Below, piece by piece: positions 6,373-38,450 of a DNA stretch of 38,740 bases. A program made the translations under genes and the position numbers. The notes below the pieces were generated by a model, which did not search any database, was not told the DNA's origin, and was given only the letters and a program-made list of their open reading frames with translations. Within the stretch, counting starts at the first letter, position 1. Each line of letters begins with the position of its first letter. Source of the stretch: a virus; the IMG/VR virus record IMGVR_UViG_3300049927_000113, positions 1 to 38,740 of that record. One strand, written 5' to 3'.

Positions 6373-6501
6373 ATGACGATTATTTTGCTGGTTCTATTCT
6401 CAGCGGCAGCTATTGCACTTGTTGTTCGCTCTGAACGCAAAAAGCCATTTGACCAGATGACTGATGACGAACAGTTTCTTGAACTCGACGAGCGGATTTA
6501 G
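6373..6501 (+). CDS. 42-residue single-pass membrane protein, antisense to the tail operon
   Basis: The ATG is preceded by GGAG with a 7-base spacer (ACCGCCG). The product begins with a hydrophobic helix (MTIILLVLFSAAAIALVV), then a basic patch RSERKK, then an acidic tail ending in DDEQFLELDERI. This composition looks like a real small membrane protein, and the reading frame fills most of a 190-base gap between two minus-strand genes, ending 4 bases inside the esterase stop region. No promoter is obvious. It could be a regulator, a superinfection protein or an accessory lysis protein; nothing in the sequence decides. Confidence 0.5.
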   Translation: MTIILLVLFSAAAIALVVRSERKKPFDQMTDDEQFLELDERI

Positions 6502-7298
6502 ATGGCCGCATTCACGGCTGTAACCCATAGGGCTGCAGCAGCGTCCGATCCCGCATCCGTAAAATGAGTGTTGTCTGCCTGCCTGCTTGCAGCAGTTAAC
6601 GTGTCGGTATCTGCTCCCGCAAAGATCGTCGTACCGTTGGGAGCCGCTACTTGCGCCGCTTGAACATTTGCATCTATCGTTCCGGTAATATAGGTGCATT
6701 TCCCGATAATCCACGGAGCGTTGAAACCTGATGCCCGAGGCGTCCCGATCACGGTGGTAAGCGCGGCCGAATAGGTCGCCTGCGCGGTACCGTGATTACT
6801 TTCCCCTTGCATCCAGATAAATGCGGATACGGTCAACCCAACCGATGCAAGCCGCTTTGGTGCAACGAGCAGCCGGGGGTTTAGCTCGCCGCCGGGAGCC
6901 CACTGAGCGATAGTCGTGCCGCCAATTCCGATCGGCATCAAAATCACGCGAGCATATTTGCCGCCCGTAATCTCTTTGTCGGCGAACCTCGTAACCCAGT
7001 TTCCAAGAAGAACTCCGGGTGAGATATTTTCGCAACCAAGCATCGGGTCGGCACCTGCATAGGTACCCCCATTATAAATCAAAATATTGTCGATCTTGCT
7101 GGCGTTCGCAGGTGAATAGGCACTCGGCACGGAATTGCAGCAATTGGACTGCCCCACGATGATGAAGACACCTGTGGACTCTCCTGCGTTCAGACGTGGA
7201 GTGCGGATGCTTTTGCTATCAGTATTACGATTGCCGCCCTGCGGATTGGTCGAGGCTTCGCCGAACGTATAGGGATCAAGGGAGGATGCGCTGAACAT
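6498..7298 (-). CDS. SASA-type carbohydrate esterase (sialate O-acetylesterase fold), tail associated
   Basis: The 266-residue protein carries the SGNH signatures of the SASA/DUF303 family. GQSN at residues 49-52 holds the nucleophile Ser51. The block IWMQGESNHG lies at about 161-170, where the family has WxQGExD. THFTDAG at about 244-250 supplies His245 and Asp248. These enzymes remove O-acetyl groups from sialic acids or plant and bacterial polysaccharides. Its place in the tail module, directly after a fibre-like gene with no gap, suggests a virion enzyme that trims acetylated host surface glycan. Base composition looks less GC-rich than the head genes, as expected for an exchanged receptor module. 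Confidence 0.82.
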   Translation of the reverse strand: MFSASSLDPYTFGEASTNPQGGNRNTDSKSIRTPRLNAGESTGVFIIVGQSNCCNSVPSAYSPANASKIDNILIYNGGTYAGADPMLGCENISPGVLLGNWVTRFADKEITGGKYARVILMPIGIGGTTIAQWAPGGELNPRLLVAPKRLASVGLTVSAFIWMQGESNHGTAQATYSAALTTVIGTPRASGFNAPWIIGKCTYITGTIDANVQAAQVAAPNGTTIFAGADTDTLTAASRQADNTHFTDAGSDAAAALWVTAVNAAI

Positions 7299-9147: not shown

Positions 9148-9682
9148 TGGTCGCGGTCACGGTGCCGGTGTATCCCGGAGAGCGGGCGCGCAGCGCGATG
9201 GCATTGGGACCGGTGGCACTGCTGCCACTGCTCAAGGCGGGCACGATGAAGTCCATGCCCGGATTGACGACGTCGCGGAAGCTCGCGCGTTGGTTGGCGC
9301 CGAGATACCACCGTTCGACTGCGTTGGTGATACCCACCTCGCCCGTGCTGTTGATCTGGACGGCACCCTGGAAGGTGACGTCCGCCGGGTCAAGATTGAA
9401 CCCGCTGCTGATGCTACTGATCATGGTTCCGGTGATGCCCGCAGGGGTCGTCCCGAGAGTGACAAACGCGAGGTCCCATTCGACCGCGTTATCCGCCGGG
9501 GTGCCATTCGTTCCGATGATGATATCGGTGATCTTGTATCGACGATTGCCGGCCCATCCGTTCGTCGCAGACGTCGCGGTACTATTGCCGATAACGATGA
9601 TCGTCTTGTACGTCGTCGCCAGATTTTGCTGCGCATTACCGGCACCAATCGCCGTGCTGTTGGTGATCGAGAAGTTAGCCAT
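9128..9682 (-). CDS. unknown virion-module protein, decoration-like
   Basis: The 184-residue product begins MANFSITNSTAIGAGNAQQN and is beta-rich, with a conserved-looking core NAVERWYLGANQRASFRDVV. In other phages, proteins of this size and composition between capsid and tail genes are often head decoration or neck proteins, but I cannot assign one. Its start overlaps the end of the Rossmann gene by 8 bases. GAGAGCCACG lies upstream of the ATG. Confidence 0.65.
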   Translation of the reverse strand: MANFSITNSTAIGAGNAQQNLATTYKTIIVIGNSTATSATNGWAGNRRYKITDIIIGTNGTPADNAVEWDLAFVTLGTTPAGITGTMISSISSGFNLDPADVTFQGAVQINSTGEVGITNAVERWYLGANQRASFRDVVNPGMDFIVPALSSGSSATGPNAIALRARSPGYTGTVTATIVGSEL

Positions 9683-10730
9683 CGTGGCTCTCCGTTACTG
9701 GTGCAGGTGGATCAGGTTGCGGCCACGGGCTACCTTTGAGGTCTTCGATCGTCGCCGTGGCGAGTCCCGTAGACATCGACCACGTCGGTTGAGGCGCCGC
9801 CTGCGCCTTCACCTGCGCAAGCTCGGCTTCGAGGCGCACAATCTTCTCATTTGCAATCATCAGATCGGTCGACGATCCACCCCAGATGCTTTCCTGGTAG
9901 TCGATGTCTTCCATCGCGCCCTGCAGATACGTCTTGCCATGGGTGGCCTGGTCGACCTGCTGGGTCGCAGCATTGATGCGGCCGGAAACTTCCTGGCGCC
10001 GAGCCATCAGCTTGCGTCCCAGCGGCGTCGAATCCGAATAAGCGTACAGCGCAGGCGCCTGCATAATGTCAGACTCATGCGGCGCGGAAATCTTGACGCC
10101 GCGCTCTACGGCCCGTTGCTTGAAGTAATAGAAGCCGGGTCGCTGCCGGATGTATTCGTCACGCGAGGCCATATCGATGCCGTACAGCGCGATCTCGCTG
10201 GCGCCCTGTGCAATCGCCAGCGCCATCATCCAGGCGAAGCTGGACGTAAAAAAATCACGGCCGAACGTCTGAACCATGTCGTACCAAGGAAACACGACGG
10301 CGTTCGCGACCAGAGACTGGTCCTGCATGTAGACCGGAAACTTTTGCTGTTTTAGCCATTCGATATACGGCCTGCCGTAGCTCTCATGCTCGGGCCAAAG
10401 CAGGTTGGAATGCAGTTCGAACCAGATATCGACACGCGGCATCGCATTCATGTTGCCCGGCGAGCAGGCCCAGATTTTCCAACTCGGATCATTGAACGGG
10501 GCAAGCATCCGCGACGATGGCGCGGTGCCGATCAGCGCGACCTTGAGCGGCCCAGCCGCTGCCGGAGTTGGGGTATGAACCGCTCCGGCAGCGCCGACCT
10601 GTTGCTGAGGAGGCTGCTCGCCTTCACGGGTCGGTTCGTGAGCCGCAAGGACGTGGAAGGTTGGCGCGCCAGCGGCGCCATTGGATTGCGGCATCTGTCC
10701 TTCGGAAAATCTAGGCGTAAGGATCGTCAT
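9675..10730 (-). CDS. Rossmann-type protein resembling Maf/GT42 sialyltransferase-like enzymes
   Basis: The 351-residue protein has a Pro/Gln-rich N-terminal 60 residues, then an alpha/beta domain. VALIGTAPSSRMLAPF at about 64-79 is a phosphate-loop-like start. PRVDIWFELHS follows near 98, and TSSFAWMMALAIAQGASEIA then LYGIDMAS at about 163-190. The last block resembles the helix-strand of GT42 sialyltransferases and DUF115/Maf flagellin glycosyltransferases, where a small-residue helix leads into a strand ending in GxDxxx. The C-terminal 90 residues look coiled-coil (IANEKIVRLEAELAQVKAQ). If it is a transferase it could use the nonulosonic sugar predicted for the plus-strand operon. Similar phage proteins are usually left as hypothetical, so this is a hypothesis. 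Confidence 0.6.
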   Translation of the reverse strand: MTILTPRFSEGQMPQSNGAAGAPTFHVLAAHEPTREGEQPPQQQVGAAGAVHTPTPAAAGPLKVALIGTAPSSRMLAPFNDPSWKIWACSPGNMNAMPRVDIWFELHSNLLWPEHESYGRPYIEWLKQQKFPVYMQDQSLVANAVVFPWYDMVQTFGRDFFTSSFAWMMALAIAQGASEIALYGIDMASRDEYIRQRPGFYYFKQRAVERGVKISAPHESDIMQAPALYAYSDSTPLGRKLMARRQEVSGRINAATQQVDQATHGKTYLQGAMEDIDYQESIWGGSSTDLMIANEKIVRLEAELAQVKAQAAPQPTWSMSTGLATATIEDLKGSPWPQPDPPAPVTESHDG

Positions 10731-27885: not shown

Positions 27886-28061
27886 CCGACAAAGTAATCA
27901 TCGACCGGGTCCGCAGCATCCGCAGCAACAACAATGGCCTCTGGATGCGGCTGCTGGAGATCGCCTTGGAGAGCGAGCCGGTCAAAACCAAGGTGGTCCT
28001 GAAGCAGATCAATGCGAACGACAAAGCCATCTCCGATCTGGTTGGAAAGCTGGCAAAATGA
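27882..28061 (+). CDS. 59-residue helical operon protein
   Basis: The start ATG overlaps the previous stop by 4 bases; longer upstream readings in this frame are shadows of the acetyltransferase gene. The product MTDKVIIDRVRSIRSNNNGL then LWMRLLEIALESEPVKTKVV ends in LKQINANDKAISDLVGKLAK. It is helical and basic. The pattern is common for small phage proteins written as SIRxxNNxLWMxLLRIAL; function unknown. Confidence 0.72.
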   Translation: MTDKVIIDRVRSIRSNNNGLWMRLLEIALESEPVKTKVVLKQINANDKAISDLVGKLAK

Positions 28062-28663
28062 GACAGGCCGATATTTTTCTTCAATCTGAAGGGGACAACT
28101 GGCTCGAAAGGAACCGGGACAAGCTCGGCGCGCATGATCCGGTTGACAGGGCTATCACTTATCTCAGCCTGAAGCCAAAGCGCGTCCTGGAGATCGGCTG
28201 CGCCAACGGCTGGCGGCTGACAGCCTTACGAGAAAAATTTGGTTGCGAGATCACCGGCATTGAACCCAGCACCCAAGCCGGATGCGAAGCTGCCGACCGC
28301 CGCGTACCGATCTATCGCGGCACCGCCGAGTCGTTGCCGGTGCCGGACGGCGCGTTCGACCTCGTGATCTATGGATTCTGTCTCTACTTGACCGATCCGG
28401 CGGACTGGTTCCGGATCGTGGCTGAGGGTGACCGCGTCCTTGCCGATACCGGCCACATGATCATCCATGACTTCTACTATCCAAAGGCACCTTACGCACA
28501 GCCCTATCATCATTGCGATGACGTTCTCTCTTACCACATGAATTTCAGCGCTCTTTGGCTCGCGCATCCTGGATATCGCCGCGTCTATGGCAGCGGCGGA
28601 GACAACAACGTTGAATCTGTCACGGTGCTCGACAAATTTCCGGTCTTTGAGGTGCGGCCATGA
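28058..28663 (+). CDS. SAM-dependent methyltransferase (class I)
   Basis: The 201-residue protein has the SAM-binding motif RVLEIGCANGWRL at 42-54. The acidic loop is IEPS near 74, and the post-I to motif II region FDLVIYGFCLYLTDPADWF near 111 is followed by RVLADTGHMIIHDFY. This is the pattern of small-molecule or sugar O-/N-methyltransferases. In context it may methylate the sugar made by the operon; a protein or lipid target cannot be excluded. Both ends overlap neighbours by 4 bases. Confidence 0.82.
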   Translation: MRQADIFLQSEGDNWLERNRDKLGAHDPVDRAITYLSLKPKRVLEIGCANGWRLTALREKFGCEITGIEPSTQAGCEAADRRVPIYRGTAESLPVPDGAFDLVIYGFCLYLTDPADWFRIVAEGDRVLADTGHMIIHDFYYPKAPYAQPYHHCDDVLSYHMNFSALWLAHPGYRRVYGSGGDNNVESVTVLDKFPVFEVRP

Positions 28664-29601
28664 AGATCGGCGTGGTCGGATACGGCTCGATCGGCAGTCG
28701 CCATGCCCGCAACGCCGTCGCATTGGGACATGAGACTATCATCTATGATCCGGCGGGACCTTGCGATGTCAGGTTCGAGCGCGAGGTTTATGAGAAAGCC
28801 GACGCCGTCGTGATAGCGACGCCGAGTTGGGTCCATACCGGCTGCATCCGTGCCTGCGCCGAGCGCGGCAAGCACATGCTGGTCGAGAAGCCGATTTCGA
28901 CGGACGATCGCGGCCTACAGGAGCTGCTTGATCTCGCCGCGAAGAACGGTGCCGTCGTCATGATGGGCAATAACCTGCGCTTCCATCCCTGTGTCCTGAA
29001 GGCCAAGGAATGGCTCGATGCCGGTCTGATCGGCAAGCCGCTCTGGGCGAACTTCACCTGCGCGCAGGCGAGCAGCAAGCCGCTCTATCTCTCCGACGGC
29101 GTTATTTTGAATACCGGATCGCACGAGGTCGACATGGCGATGCACCTGCTCGGATGGGCGAAGGTCATCATGGCGAACGCTCATCTCGGTCTTCGCGTCG
29201 GCAATGGCGATAGCGATGTAAATCCAATGCGCAACTGTGACGATATCGCCGACTTCATGCTTCTCCATGGCGACGGTTGCCGCTCGACTTTTCATCTCGA
29301 TTTTGTGGCACCGATCCCGTTGCGGGAGTTCAGGATCATCGGAGATGATGGCATCCTGTATTGCGATCTCATCAAACGATGTCTTTACCGGTGGCAACCT
29401 GATCCGAAGTTGCCCGACGTTGTGCATTTCAACAACTATGCGAGCCCGACGCACTCTTGGGACGACGACTATCTCGACGAGATGCGCGCCTTCATCGACC
29501 GCATCGAAGGTCGCGATGTCCTCGGCGCATCCGGCCATCAGGGTCTCCATGCGCTCCAGGTCCTGCTCGACGTCCGCAAGAAGGCGGGGTTAACGCCGTG
29601 A
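28660..29601 (+). CDS. Gfo/Idh/MocA-family oxidoreductase
   Basis: The 313-residue protein has an N-terminal Rossmann fold with GYGSIG at 7-12, the catalytic-region EKPIS at 76-80 and the downstream NNLRFHPCVLKAKEWLDAG block, followed by a C-terminal beta-sheet dimer domain (residues about 120-313). The family oxidises or reduces sugars and their nucleotide derivatives with NAD(P). Members of this family (for example PtmF-type enzymes) are found in flagellin legionaminic or pseudaminic acid loci, so a modifying role on a nonulosonic acid or its precursor is a reasonable inference. No pathway-specific residue is visible. Confidence 0.85.
   Translation: MKIGVVGYGSIGSRHARNAVALGHETIIYDPAGPCDVRFEREVYEKADAVVIATPSWVHTGCIRACAERGKHMLVEKPISTDDRGLQELLDLAAKNGAVVMMGNNLRFHPCVLKAKEWLDAGLIGKPLWANFTCAQASSKPLYLSDGVILNTGSHEVDMAMHLLGWAKVIMANAHLGLRVGNGDSDVNPMRNCDDIADFMLLHGDGCRSTFHLDFVAPIPLREFRIIGDDGILYCDLIKRCLYRWQPDPKLPDVVHFNNYASPTHSWDDDYLDEMRAFIDRIEGRDVLGASGHQGLHALQVLLDVRKKAGLTP

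Positions 29602-30043: not shown

Positions 30044-30047
<4 letters not shown>
29598..30047 (+). CDS. HNH-like phage protein inserted in the sugar operon
   Basis: The GTG start at 29598 overlaps the previous stop (GTGA), giving 149 residues. The core MSRTYRAWARMIQRCENPNN, then NYGGRGITVCDGW and DRIESNGHYTADNCRW, is widespread in phages and often annotated as an HNH-type endonuclease. It has D-R-I-E-N...N-C-R-W in place of the canonical HNH residues, so catalysis is uncertain. The C-terminus (MKRAAELLGLKYGSLKHLTS) is a helix-turn-helix. It interrupts otherwise metabolic genes and keeps the 4-base overlaps on both sides, suggesting a mobile nuclease gene tuned to the operon. Confidence 0.75.
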
Positions 30048-32040
<1,993 letters not shown>

Positions 32041-32044
<4 letters not shown>

Positions 32045-32892: not shown

Positions 32893-33344
32893 TCCACCTT
32901 CGCCCGGCCAACATGCAGGACGCCGACAGGCTCTTTGCCTGGCGCAACGATCCGGTAACCTGCGCCAATAGCCGCTCGACTGCCGCCATCTCGCGCGAAG
33001 ACCACGACCGCTGGATGCAGTTCAACGTCCTGCAGGGCTATCCCGAGCATTTTGTGATGATCGCCGAGGGCGACGCCGGCAGCGTCGGCGTCGTGCGCTT
33101 CGATGCGGCGAAGAATGACCTCATGACCTATGTGGCATCGATCACGATCGCGCCGCAGCATCGCGGCGCCGGACTGGCCTGTCCAATATTGGACATGGCA
33201 TGCGGCTATTTTCCCGACTTCGCGATCGATGCAGAAATCCGGTGCGATAACAAGACCTCCCAGAAGGTTTTTGAACGTTGCGGCTTCCAGCAAACAAGTC
33301 TAAATTTGGACTTTATTAAATACCGCAGGGAACCGTTGGCATGA
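32889..33344 (+). CDS. PseH/LegH-like GNAT N-acetyltransferase
   Basis: The start ATG overlaps the dehydratase stop (ATGA); 151 residues. It opens IHLRPANMQDADRLFAWRND and has the acetyl-CoA loop IAPQHRGAGLACP near 87-99, then IRCDNKTSQKVFERCGF near 120. The DADRLFAWRND opening is typical of the amino-sugar acetyltransferases of nonulosonate loci, which acetylate the 4-amino group produced by PseC. Placement between the dehydratase and the aminotransferase supports this. Confidence 0.82.
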   Translation: MIHLRPANMQDADRLFAWRNDPVTCANSRSTAAISREDHDRWMQFNVLQGYPEHFVMIAEGDAGSVGVVRFDAAKNDLMTYVASITIAPQHRGAGLACPILDMACGYFPDFAIDAEIRCDNKTSQKVFERCGFQQTSLNLDFIKYRREPLA

Positions 33345-34468
33345 TGAAGATAAAGCCGTTTAATTCATTTGGAGCAATGGAATATTCTGCGATGATCCAA
33401 TTCGCTGGCGACGCCGAAGAAACCGGCACCCCGCTTTCTGGATACATGGCTGGCCAAGAGCGCGGCGGACATCATGTCGTCGCGCTGGAAACCACATGGG
33501 CGCAGACATTCGGCATCAAGCACGCCATCGCCTGCAATAGCGCGACCAGCGGCCTGATGGCCGCAGCCTTCGCGGTCGACCTGGGTCGCGGCGATAAGTT
33601 TCTCTGCCCTGTTATGACCATGAGCGCCACGGCGGCGGCGCCTATGTTCACGGGAGCGGTGCCGGCATTTTGCGACGTCGACAGCAGAACGTTCGCGATG
33701 AGCCCGCCAAGGCGCAATTTGTGCCAGGATGAAAAGCCGAAAGCTGTCTTCCTGACGCATCTTTTCGGCCTTGCGATCGCCGAACCGTGCTGGACCGGTT
33801 GGGCTCGCGAGCATGGGGTGAAGATTGTCATCGATGCGGCACAGGCACCGTTCGCGAGATGCGACGGTGTTCTCGCGGGGACGACCGCCGACATCGGCGT
33901 CTATTCCCTGAATGTGCATAAGCCGCTTCAGTGCGGCGAAGGCGGCATCTGCGTCACGAATGATGATGACCTCGCCGCGCGGCTTCGCAAATTCATCAAC
34001 CACGGCGAAACTATCAATGCGCGGATCGGCCTGAACCTGCGCATGCCAGAGGTTTGCGCGGCGATTGCGCGGGTGCAGCTCAAGCGCGGTGAGGAGATCA
34101 TCGCCGGTAGGATCAAGCAGGCGGAGGCGATCATCGCGGCGATCGGCGACGTTCCCGGGCTGCGCCCGCCCTACATCCATCCCGATTGCAAGCACGTCTA
34201 TTACACCATCCCGTTTCTGATCGAGAAGAACCGCGCCGAGTTCTGCGCCGCGCTGCGCGCGGAGGGCGTGCCGATCGTCGAGGGGTATAATGGCGGCCCG
34301 CTCAATCGCATGAAGCCATTCGCGCCGCTCGCGCGACATTGCCCGTTCGCTGATGACCTACACGATCGCAGCCTGTTCTATTTCGAGAACTGCGCATACG
34401 ATCCGACGCCGGAGCAGATCGAGCAGATCGGCGCGGCGTTCCGGAAGGCGGCGGAGGCGGTGCTATGA
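33341..34468 (+). CDS. PseC-like DegT/DnrJ/EryC1 sugar aminotransferase
   Basis: The 375-residue protein is a PLP-dependent aminotransferase of nucleotide-sugar type. It has the substrate loop ACNSATSGLMAAAFAVD near 64-80, IVIDAAQAPFA at about 163-172 and VYSLNVHKPLQCGEGG at 187-202 with PLP lysine 194. HNFK-like signatures are replaced by NVHKP, as in some PseC/LegC homologues. It would aminate the 4-keto sugar from the dehydratase. It overlaps both neighbours by 4 bases. Confidence 0.86.
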   Translation: MMKIKPFNSFGAMEYSAMIQFAGDAEETGTPLSGYMAGQERGGHHVVALETTWAQTFGIKHAIACNSATSGLMAAAFAVDLGRGDKFLCPVMTMSATAAAPMFTGAVPAFCDVDSRTFAMSPPRRNLCQDEKPKAVFLTHLFGLAIAEPCWTGWAREHGVKIVIDAAQAPFARCDGVLAGTTADIGVYSLNVHKPLQCGEGGICVTNDDDLAARLRKFINHGETINARIGLNLRMPEVCAAIARVQLKRGEEIIAGRIKQAEAIIAAIGDVPGLRPPYIHPDCKHVYYTIPFLIEKNRAEFCAALRAEGVPIVEGYNGGPLNRMKPFAPLARHCPFADDLHDRSLFYFENCAYDPTPEQIEQIGAAFRKAAEAVL

Positions 34469-35112
34469 CCGAAATCGTCGCCGAGATTTCCGGCAACCAT
34501 GGTGGATCAATCGTCAATGCCCACCGGCTCATCAAACATGCCAAAGATGCCGGCGCTGACGCCGTCAAGTTCCAGTGCTTCGATCCAGAACGTCTTGCGG
34601 CGCGTCGCGCAATGCGGGTCGATGTCCTAGCCCTTGCCGACGGCGTCCCGCTCATCGATCTCTATCGGAAGATTCATACACCCCAAGTCTGGTTTCCGCA
34701 GTTGATCCATCAGGCCGAGGCCTTGGGCCTCGCATGGTTCTCGTCGGTCTTCGATCCAATCGACGTCGCCTTCCTCGAAACGCTCAACTGCCCCAGGTAC
34801 AAAATCTCTGCCTTCGAGATGCTTGACTGGGACATCATCAAGGCCGTCCGCGAGACCGGCAAGCCCATCGTGATGAGCGTACGTCAGGGGCCGGATGTGA
34901 CGGTCCTCGTGGCGAGCGACTACAATGGCAAATTCCTTCCGCTCGGCGCCTCGGTGCACGAACGTTTCAACGAGGACACTCATTTTCTGCCGAACAATCC
35001 GGACTGCCCCATGGTCGAGTTTCACCTTAGGCTCGAAGACGTCGACACGCCGGACAAGGATTTCTCGGTCACCGCAGACGAGCTGCGCACGATCGTCGGA
35101 TGGCTGAAATAA
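34465..35112 (+). CDS. shortened NeuB/PseI/LegI-like nonulosonate synthase
   Basis: The first half matches NeuB-family synthases, which condense an N-acetyl hexosamine with phosphoenolpyruvate: IVAEISGNHGGS at 4-15, AGADAVKFQCFD at 29-40, FSSVFDPIDVAFLE near 92 and YKISAFEMLDW at 112-122. The end MVEFHLRLEDVD to FSVTADELRTIV matches the segment where the family has EKHFTLDR and SLTPDEL. The stretch that normally lies between, containing the GYSDH metal-ligand block, is missing, and so is the C-terminal antifreeze-like (SAF) domain; length is 215 instead of about 340 residues. Activity is therefore uncertain. It is the last gene of the operon. Confidence 0.82.
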   Translation: MTEIVAEISGNHGGSIVNAHRLIKHAKDAGADAVKFQCFDPERLAARRAMRVDVLALADGVPLIDLYRKIHTPQVWFPQLIHQAEALGLAWFSSVFDPIDVAFLETLNCPRYKISAFEMLDWDIIKAVRETGKPIVMSVRQGPDVTVLVASDYNGKFLPLGASVHERFNEDTHFLPNNPDCPMVEFHLRLEDVDTPDKDFSVTADELRTIVGWLK

Positions 35113-35134
35113 AAAAGCCGCCCCGAAGGGCGGC
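35111..35134 (-). terminator. rho-independent terminator of the tRNA array
   Basis: On the minus strand the perfect 7-bp stem GCCGCCC / GGGCGGC with a TTCG loop (35134-35117) is followed by six Ts (35116-35111). It lies just past the last tRNA and overlaps the stop of the NeuB-like gene on the plus strand. The hairpin alone could also slow plus-strand transcripts, which would lack the T tract. Confidence 0.85.
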
Positions 35135-35150
35135 TAAGTCTGGGAGGAAC

Positions 35151-35224
35151 TGGCACAGATGGAGAGAATCGAACTCCCGTGTTCGGTTTTGGAGACCGAC
35201 GTCCTACCGCTGAACGACATCTGC
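35151..35224 (-). tRNA. tRNA-Trp (CCA)
   Basis: Anticodon loop CTCCAAA on a TCGGT/ACCGA stem gives CCA, reading UGG. The acceptor GCAGATG pairs with CATCTGT (one G-T at 1:72), then G73 and encoded CCA. T loop TTCGATT. It is the last gene of the array before the terminator. Confidence 0.92.
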
Positions 35225-35231
35225 ATGAAAT

Positions 35232-35308
35232 TGGTACTGACGCAGTGATTCGAACACTTTCCCACCGATTCACAGTCGGCGTGCTCTTTGCCATCGAGCA
35301 TCGTCAGC
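35232..35308 (-). tRNA. tRNA-His (GTG)
   Basis: Loop CTGTGAA on a GCCGA/TCGGT stem gives anticodon GTG. The discriminator is A73 and the base before G1 is T, so there is no encoded G-1 or C73. This is the alphaproteobacterial type of tRNA-His, not the usual bacterial type. Encoded CCA; T loop TTCGAAT. Confidence 0.92.
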
Positions 35309-35309
35309 A

Positions 35310-35380
35310 TGGTCGCGCACCCGGGTTTCGATCCCGGCTGACAGCCTTATGAGAGCCGTTTCCTCGCCAGAGGGAGCGCG
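35310..35380 (-). tRNA. tRNA with CAT anticodon (Met or Ile2), short D arm
   Basis: Loop CTCATAA gives CAT. The acceptor CGCGCTC/GTGCGCG has one mismatch, then A73 and CCA. The D arm is compressed to CCTC-TGGC-GAGG, a 4-base loop, and the T loop is ATCGAAA. At 71 nt it is shorter than usual. Elongator Met versus lysidine-modified Ile cannot be decided by eye. Confidence 0.8.
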
Positions 35381-35381
35381 A

Positions 35382-35452
35382 TGGCAGCGGCCCCGGGTGT
35401 CGAACCCGACTATCAGGCTTCAAAGGCCCGAGCCCTCGCCGGAGGTGCCGCA
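35382..35452 (-). tRNA. tRNA-Gln (TTG), short D arm
   Basis: Loop CTTTGAA on CGGGC/GCCTG gives TTG, reading CAA. U1 faces U72 and G73 is present, both fitting GlnRS recognition. The D arm CCTC-CGGC-GAGG is short, like that of the adjacent CAT tRNA. Encoded CCA. Confidence 0.85.
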
Positions 35453-35457
35453 TCAAT

Positions 35458-35532
35458 TGGTAGTCCCTGCGGGTGTCGATCCCGCCTCTCCGGTGTGAAA
35501 AACCAGTATCCTTGCCGATAGACGAAGGGACC
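35458..35532 (-). tRNA. tRNA-Glu (TTC)
   Basis: Loop TTTTCAC on CTGGT/ACCGG gives TTC, reading GAA. Acceptor GGTCCCT/AGGGACT, A73, CCA; T loop ATCGACA. Confidence 0.9.
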
Positions 35533-35533
35533 T

Positions 35534-35608
35534 TGGAGCGGACGCGGGGATTCGAACCCCGGACGAACAGCTTGGAAGGCTGACACTCTACCACTGAGTT
35601 ACGTCCGC
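35534..35608 (-). tRNA. tRNA-Gly (TCC)
   Basis: Loop CTTCCAA gives TCC, reading GGA. Acceptor GCGGACG/CGTCCGC is perfect, then T73 and CCA. T arm GGGG-TTCGAAT-CCCC is canonical. Confidence 0.93.
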
Positions 35609-35612
35609 GAAT

Positions 35613-35702
35613 TGGCGGAAGGACGGGGATTCGAACCCCGGGACGGCTCACGCCGTCGGCGATTTAGCAAACCGCTGCTTTAAGCCTCTCAGCCATCCTT
35701 CC
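35613..35702 (-). tRNA. tRNA-Ser (GCT)
   Basis: Loop TTGCTAA gives GCT, reading AGC and AGU. A long variable arm (GACGGC-GTGA-GCCGTC) marks a class II tRNA. Acceptor GGAAGGA/TCCTTCC, G73, CCA. Confidence 0.94.
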
Positions 35703-35703
35703 T

Positions 35704-35779
35704 TGGTGGCCACGGCAGGAGTCGAACCCGCGCGTTTCCCGTTAGGACCGGGAAGCTCTATCCACTGAGCTACGTGGCC
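35704..35779 (-). tRNA. tRNA-Arg (CCT)
   Basis: Loop GTCCTAA on TCCCG/CGGGA gives CCT, reading AGG. Acceptor GGCCACG/CGTGGCC, A73, CCA; T loop TTCGACT. Confidence 0.92.
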
Positions 35780-35783
35780 GTGT

Positions 35784-35860
35784 TGGCGCTTCCGCGAGGA
35801 TTCGAACCCCGGGCGACCCGGTGTAGAAAACCGGCGCTCTGTCCGCTGAGCTACGGAAGC
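35784..35860 (-). tRNA. tRNA-Arg (TCT)
   Basis: Loop TTTCTAC on CCGGT/ACCGG gives TCT, reading AGA, a rare codon in GC-rich hosts. Acceptor GCTTCCG/CGGAAGC, G73, CCA. Confidence 0.92.
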
Positions 35861-35861
35861 A

Positions 35862-35938
35862 TGGAGACGGAAGCGCGAGTCGAACGCGCCTTAGGCCGGC
35901 TTTGCAGGCCGGTGCCTTGCCGATCGAGCCATTCCGTC
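35862..35938 (-). tRNA. tRNA-Cys (GCA)
   Basis: Loop CTGCAAA on CCGGC/GCCGG gives GCA. Acceptor GACGGAA/TTCCGTC with T73 (U73, the Cys identity base) and CCA; T arm GCGCG-TTCGACT-CGCGC. Confidence 0.92.
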
Positions 35939-35945
35939 AACAAAT

Positions 35946-35977
35946 ATGTTTCCATTTTGGTCCGGTGGTGGAAACAT
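35946..35977. repeat. 9-bp inverted repeat in a tRNA spacer
   Basis: ATGTTTCCA (35946-35954) and its exact reverse complement TGGAAACAT (35969-35977) flank a 14-base loop. It fills most of the 51-base spacer between tRNA-Cys and tRNA-Gln, which is longer than most spacers here. It could be a processing signal, a remnant of a lost tRNA or a binding site. Confidence 0.5.
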
Positions 35978-35989
35978 CCAAGTATACAT

Positions 35990-36064
35990 TGGCGGGGGAT
36001 GACGGGTTCGAACCGCCGCGCACGGAGTCAGAGTCCGTCGCTCTACCGACTGAGCTAATCCCCT
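35990..36064 (-). tRNA. tRNA-Gln (CTG)
   Basis: Loop CTCTGAC on ACGGA/TCCGT gives CTG, reading CAG. A1 faces C72 (unpaired) and G73 is present, in line with GlnRS preference for an open first pair. Encoded CCA. Confidence 0.9.
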
Positions 36065-36067
36065 ATT

Positions 36068-36144
36068 TGGTCAGGGTGCGGAGATTTGAACTCCGGGCCT
36101 CCTGCGCCCGAGGCAAGCGCTCTGCCGGTCTGAGCTATACCCTG
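36068..36144 (-). tRNA. tRNA-Pro (CGG)
   Basis: Loop CTCGGGC on CTTGC/GCAGG gives CGG, reading CCG. Acceptor pairs except A7-C66; A73, CCA; T loop TTCAAAT. Confidence 0.9.
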
Positions 36145-36158
36145 ATAAAGTACATCCC

Positions 36159-36554
36159 ATGAAAGTCATTGTATGCGGCGGTCGAGCCTTCAGAAGTCCC
36201 GCGCAGGTCTGGCGCGCTCTCGACAGAATCCACGCCACGGCTCCCATAACCGAATTGATGCAGGGCGGCGCGGCCGGCGTCGACACCTTCGCCCGCGAAT
36301 GGGCCGCCAGGAAGCCCGAGATTAAGCGCTTTGTCTGCCGCGCCGATTGGGACAAGTACGGCAAGAGCGCCGGCCCAAGGCGCAACGCCCGGATGCTCGA
36401 ATGGAAGCCCGACCGCGTTATCGCCTTCCCAGGCGGTGTCGGTACCGCCGACATGATCGCTCAAGCGGCAAGGGCCGGCGTCGATGTCTACCATGTCGAT
36501 CCGACAGAATGGCGATCTCACGAGGAGTCGAACCCCGAACCTCCCGGTTCGTAG
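36159..36554 (+). CDS. DUF2493 (YspA-type SLOG) nucleotide-binding protein, antisense within the tRNA array
   Basis: The 131-residue protein shows the SLOG/DUF2493 pattern: VIVCGGRAF at 3-11, LMQGGAAGVDTFAREWA at about 33-49, WDKYGKSAGPRRNARML near 64-80 and AFPGGVGTADMI at 89-100. SLOG proteins bind nucleotides or NAD/ADP-ribose derivatives and often occur in phage and defence contexts. It is the only plus-strand gene in the array. Its last 45 bases run antisense through the 3' part of tRNA-Arg (ACG), so its C-terminal 14 residues are read from tRNA complement. No clear promoter or ribosome site was seen. Confidence 0.8.
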   Translation: MKVIVCGGRAFRSPAQVWRALDRIHATAPITELMQGGAAGVDTFAREWAARKPEIKRFVCRADWDKYGKSAGPRRNARMLEWKPDRVIAFPGGVGTADMIAQAARAGVDVYHVDPTEWRSHEESNPEPPGS

Positions 36555-36586
36555 CCGGGCGCTCTCTCCAGTTGAGCTATGAGACC
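36510..36586 (-). tRNA. tRNA-Arg (ACG)
   Basis: Loop CTACGAA on CCCGG/CCGGG gives ACG, presumably inosine-modified to read CGU, CGC and CGA. Acceptor GGTCTCA/TGAGATC, G73, CCA. The plus-strand DUF2493 gene ends inside it. Confidence 0.93.
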
Positions 36587-36587
36587 A

Positions 36588-36662
36588 TGGCGCTGCATGG
36601 GAGAATCGAACTCCCCTTTCCGACGTGAGAGGCCGGCTTCCTGACCGATAGAAGAATGCAGC
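36588..36662 (-). tRNA. tRNA-Glu (CTC)
   Basis: Loop CTCTCAC on CCGGC/GTCGG gives CTC, reading GAG. Acceptor GCTGCAT/ATGCAGC, G73, CCA. Confidence 0.91.
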
Positions 36663-36666
36663 AAAT

Positions 36667-36741
36667 TGGCTCCGGGGGCAGGGATCGAACCTGCGATCGT
36701 CTGATTAACAGTCAGCCGCTGTACCACTCAGCTACCCCGAA
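36667..36741 (-). tRNA. tRNA-Asn (GTT)
   Basis: Loop CTGTTAA gives GTT. Acceptor TTCGGGG/CCCCGGA (one T-G), G73, CCA. The first anticodon-stem pair (G27-A43) is mismatched. Confidence 0.9.
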
Positions 36742-36743
36742 CT

Positions 36744-36818
36744 TGGTGGACCGAGGGAGAATCGAACTCCCGACCCGCTGCTTGCAAAACAGCCGCTCTC
36801 CCGCTGAGCTACCGGCCC
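36744..36818 (-). tRNA. tRNA-Ala (TGC)
   Basis: Loop TTTGCAA on GCTGT/GCAGC gives TGC. Acceptor GGGCCGG/TCGGTCC contains the G3-U70 pair, the alanine identity element; A73, CCA. Confidence 0.94.
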
Positions 36819-36822
36819 GATA

Positions 36823-36897
36823 TGGTGCCAAGAAGAGGGATCGAACCTCTGCGCGCGGTGCTTCAAACCGCAGCTCTACCGACTGAGCTATCTTGGC
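36823..36897 (-). tRNA. tRNA-Phe (GAA)
   Basis: Loop TTGAAGC on GCGGT/ACCGC gives GAA. Acceptor GCCAAGA/TCTTGGC, A73, CCA; T loop TTCGATC. Confidence 0.93.
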
Positions 36898-36902
36898 GAA
36901 AC

Positions 36903-36976
36903 TGGAGCGGGTAGCGGAAATCGAATCCGCGTCATCACCTTGGCAAGGTGACACTCTGCCACTGAGCTATACCCGC
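36903..36976 (-). tRNA. tRNA-Gly (GCC)
   Basis: Loop TTGCCAA on TCACC/GGTGA gives GCC. Acceptor GCGGGTA/TACCCGC, T73, CCA. Confidence 0.93.
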
Positions 36977-36977
36977 A

Positions 36978-37064
36978 TGGTGGGCAGACCACGGATTCGA
37001 ACCTGGGAACCCCGAAGGGACGACGTTTACAGCGTCGCTGCTTTGGCCGCTTGCATACCTACCC
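36978..37064 (-). tRNA. tRNA-Tyr (GTA)
   Basis: Loop CTGTAAA on GACG/CGTC gives GTA. The long variable arm (GTCCC-TTC-GGGGTT) is the bacterial class II tRNA-Tyr form. Acceptor GGGTAGG/TCTGCCC, A73, CCA. Confidence 0.94.
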
Positions 37065-37069
37065 AAAAC

Positions 37070-37146
37070 TGGTTGCGCAGGTGGAACTCGAATCCACAAT
37101 ACCTCAGCTTATGAGACTGATTAGCCTACCCAGGCTTGTCCGCGCT
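37070..37146 (-). tRNA. tRNA with CAT anticodon, unpaired first position
   Basis: Loop CTCATAA on TCAGT/GCTGA gives CAT. The acceptor pairs at 2-7 but A1 faces A72, with A73 and CCA. A mismatch at 1:72 is the main initiator feature, yet the three G-C pairs of an initiator anticodon stem are absent. Initiator-like Met, elongator Met or Ile2 are all open. The 62 bases before tRNA-Ser hold no feature I can see. Confidence 0.82.
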
Positions 37147-37208
37147 ATATTGGTGCGAAGCTTTTAACTCACTCGCTTTGCTGATGTACATCCGATCAGT
37201 CAAGAAAT

Positions 37209-37297
37209 TGGCGGAGCGCCAAGGAGTTGAACCCTCACCGCTTGCGCGGGGCACGGTTTTCGAGACCGTCTGGCCCACCATCGGACCGCAACGCTCC
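37209..37297 (-). tRNA. tRNA-Ser (CGA)
   Basis: Loop CTCGAAA on ACGGT/ACCGT gives CGA, reading UCG. Long variable arm CCCCGC-GCAA-GCGGTG. Acceptor GGAGCGT/GCGCTCC, G73, CCA; T loop TTCAACT. Confidence 0.92.
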
Positions 37298-37301
37298 ATA
37301 T

Positions 37302-37379
37302 TGGTCGTTCCGGGATGATTCGAACATCCGACCCGAGGCTTCGGAGGCCCCTGCTCTATTTCCACTGAGCTACGGAACG
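37302..37379 (-). tRNA. tRNA-Arg (CCG)
   Basis: Loop CTCCGAA on GGGGC/GCCTC gives CCG, reading CGG. Acceptor CGTTCCG/CGGAACG, A73, CCA. Its 5' end abuts the stop of the RusA-like gene. Confidence 0.92.
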
Positions 37380-37721
37380 TTATTTCTTCTGGTTGGTCCA
37401 GAGCTTCTTGATCCTGGTTTCGCCGATTAGCCCGTCGTCGGTAACAATGCCCGGCTTATCGAGCGTCTTGCCGTCGAGCGCCTGCTCCAGCGCCAGGTAA
37501 AGGTTGCCGTTGTCCGGTGACGACGGATTGACGAAGAGAACATGGACGTCGATCTCGTGCGGAATTGCCGTAACGATGCCGATCTTCTTCATCGCAGCGC
37601 GGATCGCCGCGCGATACTGCTTGATGATCTGGATGTGCATTCTCCGATGCGGGGCATCGTGAATGTAGAGCATCAGCAGTGGCGGCTCGGCCGTCGGCAC
37701 GTAGTTCGCGATGACCTTCAT
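37380..37721 (-). CDS. RusA-like Holliday junction resolvase candidate
   Basis: The 113-residue protein has a strand-rich N-terminus and a helix QIIKQYRAAIRAAMKKIG. It then shows IDVHVLFVNPSSPDNGNLYL to ALEQALDG at about 57-84 and GIVTDDGLI at 91-99. The order D-N-x-x-L-x-x-A-L-x-G then D-D-x-x-I is the RusA metal-site pattern (normally PDxDN...ALNG...DD). It is transcribed with the tRNAs; its ATG shares a base with the CCA of tRNA-Met and its stop abuts tRNA-Arg. RusA enzymes resolve branched DNA before packaging. Divergent sequence, so the call is tentative. Confidence 0.65.
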   Translation of the reverse strand: MKVIANYVPTAEPPLLMLYIHDAPHRRMHIQIIKQYRAAIRAAMKKIGIVTAIPHEIDVHVLFVNPSSPDNGNLYLALEQALDGKTLDKPGIVTDDGLIGETRIKKLWTNQKK

Positions 37722-37796
37722 GGTGCATGCCCGGGGGATCGAACCCCGTCCTGTGACTGTTATGAGCAGTCGGCCGTCCCATCTGGCTCGACATGC
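37721..37796 (-). tRNA. tRNA with CAT anticodon (Met or Ile2)
   Basis: Loop CTCATAA on GACTG/CAGTC gives CAT. Acceptor GCATGTC/GGCATGC is fully paired with one T-G; A73, CCA; T arm CGGGG-TTCGATC-CCCCG. G1-C72 pairing makes it an elongator-type tRNA. Confidence 0.9.
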
Positions 37797-37885
37797 GAAT
37801 GGCTTTCCGATCAGGAGGCCGCTGATTCCTCATTTACCTCCGTTTACCCCGCAGCCTCACTATGCGGGCACCGCCTGATCGAAAC

Positions 37886-38053
37886 TTAACGCGAGAGCTG
37901 CTTGCACATATCACGAACCGCAGCCTTGCGCTCGCGCTTCCAGAACCGTCGCTTGATTTCCTTGATCGCGCCGGGGCGCCAGCGCAGCAGACGCCGGGCT
38001 CGCCGTGAAAATGCATCCCACTCATCGCCGCCGTGCAGTCTGGCTTTCATCAT
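37886..38053 (-). CDS. small basic phage protein (MKARLHGG type)
   Basis: The 55-residue frame (an ATG one codon later is equally possible) reads MKARLHGGDEWDAFSRRARR, then LLRWRPGAIKEIKRRFWKRE and a short basic end. I recognise the K-x-R-L-H-G-G-x-E-x-D-A opening followed by W-x-P-G-x-x-K-x-I-K-R from many phages, where it is of unknown function and often lies near tRNA or DNA-metabolism genes. It sits between two tRNAs in the same orientation. The region 37797-37885 downstream of it shows only a small hairpin (CCCGCA/TGCGGG). Confidence 0.72.
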   Translation of the reverse strand: MMKARLHGGDEWDAFSRRARRLLRWRPGAIKEIKRRFWKRERKAAVRDMCKQLSR

Positions 38054-38066
38054 CGATCATCCGAAT

Positions 38067-38125
38067 TGGCCGCATCGTTAGGGGACACTGCCCAGCTAGG
38101 TCCGGGCTCTCACCGGCACGACGCG
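38067..38125 (-). ncRNA. 59-nt tRNA-like element with encoded CCA and a CTA-containing loop
   Basis: The minus strand starts CGCGTCG and ends CGATGCG-G-CCA: a full 7-bp acceptor (one G-T), discriminator G and encoded CCA, spaced 4 bases from tRNA-Pro as other array members are. Inside is one clear hairpin, GCCCGG/CTGGGC with loop ACCTAG. There is no recognisable D arm and no TTCRA T loop. It may be a decayed or minimal tRNA; if the loop works as an anticodon loop, CTA would read UAG. Function uncertain. Confidence 0.45.
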
Positions 38126-38129
38126 AAAT

Positions 38130-38203
38130 TGGTCTCCGCACGGAGTTCCGCCTTCCGGCCTCCTGCTCCCAAGGCAGGCGCTCTTCTCACGAGCTTTGCA
38201 GAG
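38130..38203 (-). tRNA. tRNA-Pro (TGG) with degenerate T loop
   Basis: Loop CTTGGGA on CCTGC/GCAGG gives TGG, reading CCA. Acceptor CTCTGCA/TGCGGAG, A73, CCA. The T arm reads CGGAA-GGCGGAA-CTCCG, so TTCRA is absent and one stem pair is lost; it may be a pseudo-tRNA or structurally unusual. Confidence 0.75.
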
Positions 38204-38206
38204 ATA

Positions 38207-38280
38207 TGGCGACGCTACGGAGTTTCGATCTCCGGTCATCCGGTTGACAACCGGGTGCTCTCCCATTGAGCTATAGCGCC
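38207..38280 (-). tRNA. tRNA-Asp (GTC)
   Basis: Loop TTGTCAA on CCCGG/CCGGA gives GTC. Acceptor GGCGCTA/TAGCGTC, G73 (Asp identity), CCA; T loop ATCGAAA. Confidence 0.92.
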
Positions 38281-38281
38281 A

Positions 38282-38370
38282 TGGTGCGACCAGGGAGACT
38301 CGAACACCCACGGGGACAGCGCCCCACAGCCTTCTCAGGGCTGACCGTCTACCAATTCCGGCATGGTCGC
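38282..38370 (-). tRNA. tRNA-Leu (GAG)
   Basis: Loop CTGAGAA on CAGCC/GGCTG gives GAG, reading CUC and CUU. Long variable arm; acceptor GCGACCA/TGGTCGC, A73 (Leu identity), CCA. Confidence 0.93.
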
Positions 38371-38375
38371 ATTGT

Positions 38376-38450
38376 TGGTGAACCCTCGGCGAATCGAACG
38401 CCGGACACGGAGGTTAAGAGGCTCCTGTTCTTCCACTGAACTAAGGGTCC
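38376..38450 (-). tRNA. tRNA-Lys (CTT)
   Basis: Loop CTCTTAA gives CTT, reading AAG. Acceptor GGACCCT/AGGGTTC, A73, CCA. The innermost anticodon-stem pair is C-C. Its 5' end overlaps the stop of the HNH gene by 10 bases. Confidence 0.9.

Follow-up and report, generated by a model that had tools for sequence, protein, structure and literature searches.

A conserved helix-stripped, SAF-less NeuB/PseI variant in the sugar cassettes of uncultivated phages

Introduction

Synthases of the NeuB/PseI kind couple phosphoenolpyruvate (PEP) with a six-carbon sugar and so yield sugars resembling sialic acid. The pseudaminic acid pathway runs in the order PseB, PseC, PseH, PseG, PseI and PseF, with PseI performing the PEP condensation step (PMC7910423). 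In the related synthase NeuB of Neisseria meningitidis, the SAF (antifreeze-like) domain contributes an arginine, R314, that is essential for catalysis, the R314A variant being inactive (PMC6795526). In Acinetobacter, enzymes encoded by phages are known to modify the host's capsular pseudaminic acid (PMC12053666), and functional stripped-down enzymes in phages have been demonstrated with the Vp16 peptide deformylase (PMC5591237). Loss of core elements inside a TIM barrel is rare: a survey of within-domain atrophy listed four putative cases and reassigned LuxF to that class (PMC4432964). Here we describe a conserved clade of phage proteins that have lost outer helices of the NeuB/PseI barrel and the SAF domain, described as the source of the essential arginine, but retain the catalytic residues.

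The locus and its neighbours

The window is the whole stretch analysed, 38,740 bases of the IMG/VR virus record IMGVR_UViG_3300049927_000113. The frame of the synthase gene is intact and its start overlaps the stop of the PseC-like gene (ATGA, 34465-34468), which bears out the original observation of an intact, coupled reading frame. The same-strand genes upstream make up most of a pseudaminic-acid-type pathway (Table 1), and a PseG-type hydrolase was not found in the ten phage records that carry the short form. The PseB-like enzyme is itself short, its 283 residues covering positions 5-269 of the 324-position PseB model. In two related loci the short NeuB lies beside very short DegT/DnrJ-type aminotransferases (L009:4545-5171, 208 aa; L005:5345-6004, 219 aa) that match their 360-position family model in two separated stretches and may represent another miniaturised enzyme of this pathway. 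In two others an ATP-grasp enzyme and a PIG-L deacetylase are inserted between PseB and the PseH-like gene (L007:2180-3666, L008:2855-4395), which indicates different final sugars.

Several further features of the window were recorded. On the minus strand, a hairpin with a T-run after it (about 35113-35140) lies immediately next to the stop codon of the synthase gene, and beyond it 23 tRNA genes are arrayed on that strand (35151-38450), with a YspA/SLOG-type protein (YAcAr, PF10686; 36159-36554) on the opposite, plus strand within the array. A SASA family esterase of the sialic-acid-specific acetylesterase type is encoded on the minus strand at 6498-7298 among genes resembling phage tail genes, and may be related to a surface sugar. 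A protein with the start GTAPSSRMLAP or GGAPSSRMLAP is common to the window (9675-10730, minus strand) and one relative (L006:9850-10560), near phage structural genes in both; a Maf-like glycosyltransferase was suspected for the window copy and rejected, as it had no Pfam match.

Table 1. Coordinates in the window of the cassette genes and of the landmarks within the short synthase
Feature	Position	Strand	Basis
Second GNAT acetyltransferase, common to several full-length-NeuB phage cassettes	27373..27885	+	
SAM-dependent methyltransferase, same cassette	28058..28663	+	
Gfo/Idh/MocA oxidoreductase, same cassette	28660..29601	+	
SpsF/PseF-like cytidylyltransferase and class-III (HemL-like) aminotransferase fusion	30044..32044	+	profile matches
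PseB-like UDP-GlcNAc 4,6-dehydratase, 283 aa	32041..32892	+	profile matches
PseH-like GNAT N-acetyltransferase, 151 aa	32889..33344	+	profile matches
PseC-like DegT/DnrJ aminotransferase, overlaps synthase start (ATGA)	33341..34468	+	profile matches
Short NeuB/PseI-like synthase, 215 aa, barrel only, without SAF	34465..35112	+	profiles, alignment, models
E7 codon (= E25 of N. meningitidis NeuB, sugar/PEP site)	34483..34485	+	alignment
K35-F36-Q37 codons (= K53, Q55)	34567..34575	+	alignment
K113...E118 codons (= K129, E134)	34801..34818	+	alignment
S138-V139-R140, end of strand 5; S138 = S154	34876..34884	+	alignment
Shortened strand 5-7 segment; strand 6 (VTVLVASDY, Y153 = Y186) kept, helices 5 and 6 deleted	34885..34941	+	alignment, model
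LGASVH, residual GYSDH block; S163 = S213, H165 = H215 (metal ligand)	34942..34959	+	alignment
VEFH; E185 = E234, H187 = H236 (second metal ligand)	35014..35025	+	alignment

Family membership and the extent of the deletion

The short protein matches the NeuB family profile PF03102 with E=1.2e-27 and 97.4 bits (cut-off 22.1), the best single stretch being residues 22-139. The PseI model TIGR03586 scores 128 bits over residues 3-139 and the NeuB model 87 bits, and the former value lies well below the equivalog cut-off of 340 bits. Because single-profile matches end at about residue 139, the remainder appears lost when the protein is read alone. Profile-profile alignment (hhalign) of ten short with 23 full-length NeuB/PseI proteins, in contrast, reaches the C-terminus with a probability of 100 and E=2.9e-53, and segments for all eight barrel strands can be aligned, including PIVMSV for strand 5, VTVLVASDY for strand 6, LGASVH with strand 7 and MVEFHL for strand 8. 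The large gaps are confined to strands 5-7, with a smaller one between strands 7 and 8.

Between strands 5 and 7 the short protein lacks about 34 residues, comprising helices 5 and 6. SAF and most of helix 7 are also absent, and the (beta/alpha)8 barrel is thus incomplete. Counted on the printed alignments, the spacing between the strand-5 Ser and the strand-7 His is 61 residues in Campylobacter jejuni PseI (S156-H217) and 27 in the short protein (S138-H165). From the strand-7 to the strand-8 His it is 21 in PseI, 17 in the relative L004 and 22 in the window, whose protein carries a private 5-residue insertion after SVH. No SAF match was obtained in the window record or the nine related phage records, while control genomes were positive, so that the SAF domain is absent as originally proposed, and with it the catalytic R314; the VEFH...FSVTADEL segment is present near the C-terminus. 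The same proposal had the middle of the barrel deleted together with the GYSDH block and a metal ligand, and named the discovery of that motif elsewhere in an alignment as grounds for abandoning the idea. This part did not hold: LGASVH (residues 160-165) aligns on VGLSDH of the full-length proteins, the metal-ligand His is kept as H165, and an aligned counterpart exists for the strands, for the GxSxH motif and for each metal-ligand His, the losses being outer helices and SAF. The suggestion of another chemistry or of an inactive lyase-like protein, drawn from the missing barrel middle, thereby lost its support. By homology the short protein should be placed in the NeuB family and named a NeuB-family variant, not PseI, because it lacks the complete set of barrel helices and the SAF domain and falls below the PseI equivalog cut-off.

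The short clade and its constraint

Scans of viral sequences for short homologues with the same deletion recovered nine further members, eight of them complete (L002-L009) and one cut by the contig end (L010), all from uncultivated phages; the short form measures 208-220 residues. The same deletion in ten phage contigs with intact frames is more than chance. In trees computed without L010, the short form groups as one clade (support 100/100) inside the PseI-type group and connects to its full-length relatives by one branch; the direction of change, a loss from the full-length form, is inferred since the root of the tree is not fixed. Among 50 bacterial and archaeal homologues checked none was below 279 aa, and a C-terminal-block query that was positive in all ten phage records retrieved no short form from 385 genomes of one class, which is weak evidence of absence given a class sample that contained no known positive. 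Isolated phages yielded nothing beyond a 26% partial match, and PHROGs had no match to the short protein. Further viral scans with L007 and L009 as queries added no members, and sampling therefore looks near saturation for these patterns.

Whole-gene pN/pS across all short pairs is 0.20-0.52, values that are rough upper estimates at near-saturated synonymous sites. The C-terminal third of the window copy is its least constrained part (pN/pS 0.72 against L002, its nearest relative). This copy is the most derived of the set, with SDH read as SVH, the 5-residue insertion and the divergent C-terminal third, and may itself be relaxed. A frameshift or a displaced domain was considered and rejected, as six-frame searches with PF03102 and SAF gave no displaced piece, only a single NeuB whose two pieces lie in the same frame; an assembly error was likewise rejected, as the ten contigs agree. 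Inspection by eye revealed no conserved small partner ORF that might supply the lost helices, and the downstream genes differ between loci.

Retention of active-site residues

The active site of N. meningitidis NeuB includes K53, E134, S154 and H236, and its Mn ligands are H215 and H236. The rest of the active-site list follows PMC6795526, with numbering read from alignments. The 14 barrel positions compared, given as NeuB/short equivalents, comprise the PEP/sugar-site residues E25/E7, K53/K35, Q55/Q37, T110/S94, F112/F96, K129/K113, E134/E118, S154/S138, Y186/Y153, S213/S163 and E234/E185, invariant in the nine complete members; the metal-ligand His H215/H165 and H236/H187, invariant in all ten members; and N184/S151, which is S or T in the short clade. 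Invariance at 13 of 14 positions in the nine complete proteins exceeds the background, in which 72 of 215 positions are invariant (P=3e-6), and the C-terminal part alone retains five of its six (P=9e-4). Across 26 short and full-length proteins, seven of the 11 invariant columns are catalytic-site positions. The equivalent of T110 is Ser in the short clade, as it is in many PseI proteins. N74 could not be placed in the alignment, and F288 and R314 have no counterpart in the short protein.

The GYSDH block varies among the short relatives, reading LGVSDH in four, LGLSAH or LGLSIH in others and LGASVH in the window. Six of the ten members have lost the Asp of SDH, whereas L006 has SDH intact. 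GYSGHE is read at this position in some barrel-only relatives, and the Asp is therefore not universally required. One substitution is specific to the clade. All 23 full-length proteins have a Gly after Ser-Thr in strand 5 (G148 in the first row of their alignment), where the short proteins have an invariant Arg (R140; 10/10). Judging from strand alternation with S138, the side chain of R140 should point the same way, toward the active site, where it may partly substitute for the SAF arginine.

Structure models

AlphaFold2 gave pLDDT 83.5 and pTM 0.83 with the short-family alignment alone, and 91.8 and 0.88 when 16 full-length rows were added, although the second alignment brings in information from full-length proteins and does not bear independently on the homology claim. 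The best PDB match of the two models was PseI 8h2c (Z 22.4 and 23.1, rmsd 2.9 and 2.8, with 208 and 205 of 215 residues aligned). NeuB ranked next, and the KDO8P and DAHP synthases (Z 14-16) fell 5-8 Z units below the PseI and NeuB chains. DSSP assigned no helix of at least four residues between residues 131 and 203, strand 6 is assigned weakly or not at all, and strand 7 is short, so that closure of the barrel is no more than plausible.

Full-length NeuB in sister cassettes

A viral scan for full-length NeuB retrieved 13 contigs with cassette genes around a NeuB of 324-350 aa (L115, L119, L123, L126, L127, L129, L137, L139, L143, L146, L155, L160 and L164, with L137 and L139 apparently near-identical to each other), and a fourteenth (L111) in which only the SpsF/HemL part is common. 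In L119 and L143 the SpsF, HemL, PseB, PseH and PseC neighbours share 55-77% identity with those of the window, as in the short-form loci, and their HemL and PseB fall among the short-form phages in trees, several forks of which are weakly supported. Whole-record searches found a single NeuB in each of the 13 full-length records, and the short-form records likewise contain one each. Exchange of the short and full-length forms at one slot makes it likeliest that they do the same job.

Competing explanations

One alternative is decay or an assembly artefact, and the divergent C-terminal third of the window copy would suit it; however, ten contigs with intact frames and one shared deletion, constraint over the whole gene and the failure to find a displaced NeuB or SAF piece largely refute it, and we regard it as highly improbable. 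A dead homologue retained as an accessory subunit or regulator, acting on a host NeuB/PseI or on the other cassette enzymes, would fit the lost helices and SAF and the Asp missing from most members. Such a role is hard to reconcile with catalytic positions that are the most conserved of all, with one NeuB per short-form record and with a slot that holds full-length NeuB in relatives, and it seems to us quite unlikely.

It is also conceivable, if unlikely, that the compact protein is an enzyme of altered chemistry, still using PEP and metal, whose open SAF-less site takes another aldehyde, a nucleotide-linked sugar or a smaller sugar. The lost SAF contacts the sugar, S or T occupies the N184 position, R140 is invariant and specific to the clade, PseG was not found, and the neighbours vary among phages (PIG-L deacetylase, ATP-grasp and HAD phosphatase in L007), all of which would accommodate a different substrate. 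Yet sister cassettes with the same PseB, PseC, SpsF and HemL hold a normal full-length NeuB in the slot, implying the same step.

The ten-member clade of constant architecture, its invariant catalytic positions and the slot held in common with full-length NeuB support the original view of a compact enzyme in preference to decay. The protein is neither a decaying gene nor a barrel without its middle, and is a conserved, helix-stripped, SAF-less NeuB/PseI variant.

Proposed function and significance

We consider it probable that this variant is a functional metal- and PEP-dependent nonulosonic (pseudaminic-type) acid synthase that arose by within-domain atrophy of a TIM barrel. This reading draws on the homology, residue retention, clade, fold model and slot in common with full-length NeuB computed here; its catalysis, substrate, oligomerisation and the role of R140 are inferred. 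Several observations count against it: R314 has no aligned equivalent, no PseG-type hydrolase was found in the ten records, the window copy is derived, and the models form strands 6-7 poorly.

In the proposed pathway, the phage PseB-, PseC- and PseH-like enzymes would convert UDP-GlcNAc into a diacetamido-trideoxyhexose nucleotide, and the free hexose would be released by a hydrolase, either of the host or unrecognised. The short enzyme would condense it with PEP, and the SpsF-like domain of the fusion protein would activate the product with CTP. The catalytic face of the barrel (E7, K35, Q37, S94, F96, K113, E118, S138, Y153, S163, H165, E185 and H187) is retained. The SAF cap is lost, as are the helices that cover strands 5-7, and the loss of helices should expose the hydrophobic outer faces of strands 5-8. 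This flank is probably covered by self-association, similar to that expected from LuxF, whose equivalent cleft is buried in a homodimer (PMC4432964), and oligomerisation probably stabilises the short protein. A stronger version, which we offer tentatively and would not bet on, is a fully active helix-stripped, SAF-free synthase in which the shaved flank has become a new oligomer interface and R140 supplies the function of the SAF arginine; if true, this would be a natural minimal PEP-condensing barrel of about 60% of normal length. As a working enzyme, the short protein is probably one of the smallest of this kind. Full-length enzymes in the matching slot of sister cassettes serve as natural controls, and the roles of the SAF domain and outer helices, and the shrinking of metabolic enzymes by phages, become directly testable.

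Comparison with known systems

The closest described enzyme is PseI of C. jejuni (8h2c; TIGR03586), which shares the fold (Z 22-23), the order of all strand motifs, the metal and PEP/sugar residues and PseB/C/H-like neighbours. It differs in possessing helices 5-6, an unreduced helix 7 and SAF, in the Ser-His spacing (61 against 27 in the short protein) and in the profile score (the short protein reaching 128 of 340 bits). N. meningitidis NeuB (1xuu/2wqp) agrees at 13 of 14 compared barrel positions, identical or conservative, with H215 and H236 kept; the short protein lacks the SAF R314 and the lost helices, and its HMM score is closer to PseI. Barrel-only NeuB-like proteins (279-302 aa in several bacteria; 6ncs, chain of 290 aa; phage L011, 276 aa) also lack the SAF segment but keep helices 5-7, the short clade being 60-90 residues smaller. 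KDO8P and DAHP synthases are likewise SAF-less PEP-condensing TIM barrels (Z 14-16), although their helices are complete and they have no close sequence relation to the short protein.

Beyond this chemistry, the non-fluorescent flavoprotein LuxF (NFP) is a TIM barrel minus internal helices that is still a conserved protein (PMC4432964). LuxF, however, also lost a strand, has been solved as a dimer and is thought to bind a flavin derivative (PMC4432964), whereas in the short protein segments for all eight strands align and the catalytic residues are retained. The peptide deformylase of phage Vp16 is similarly phage-miniaturised, without an extra domain, and is active (PMC5591237), but it is a different enzyme and lost a terminal region and nothing else (PMC5591237).
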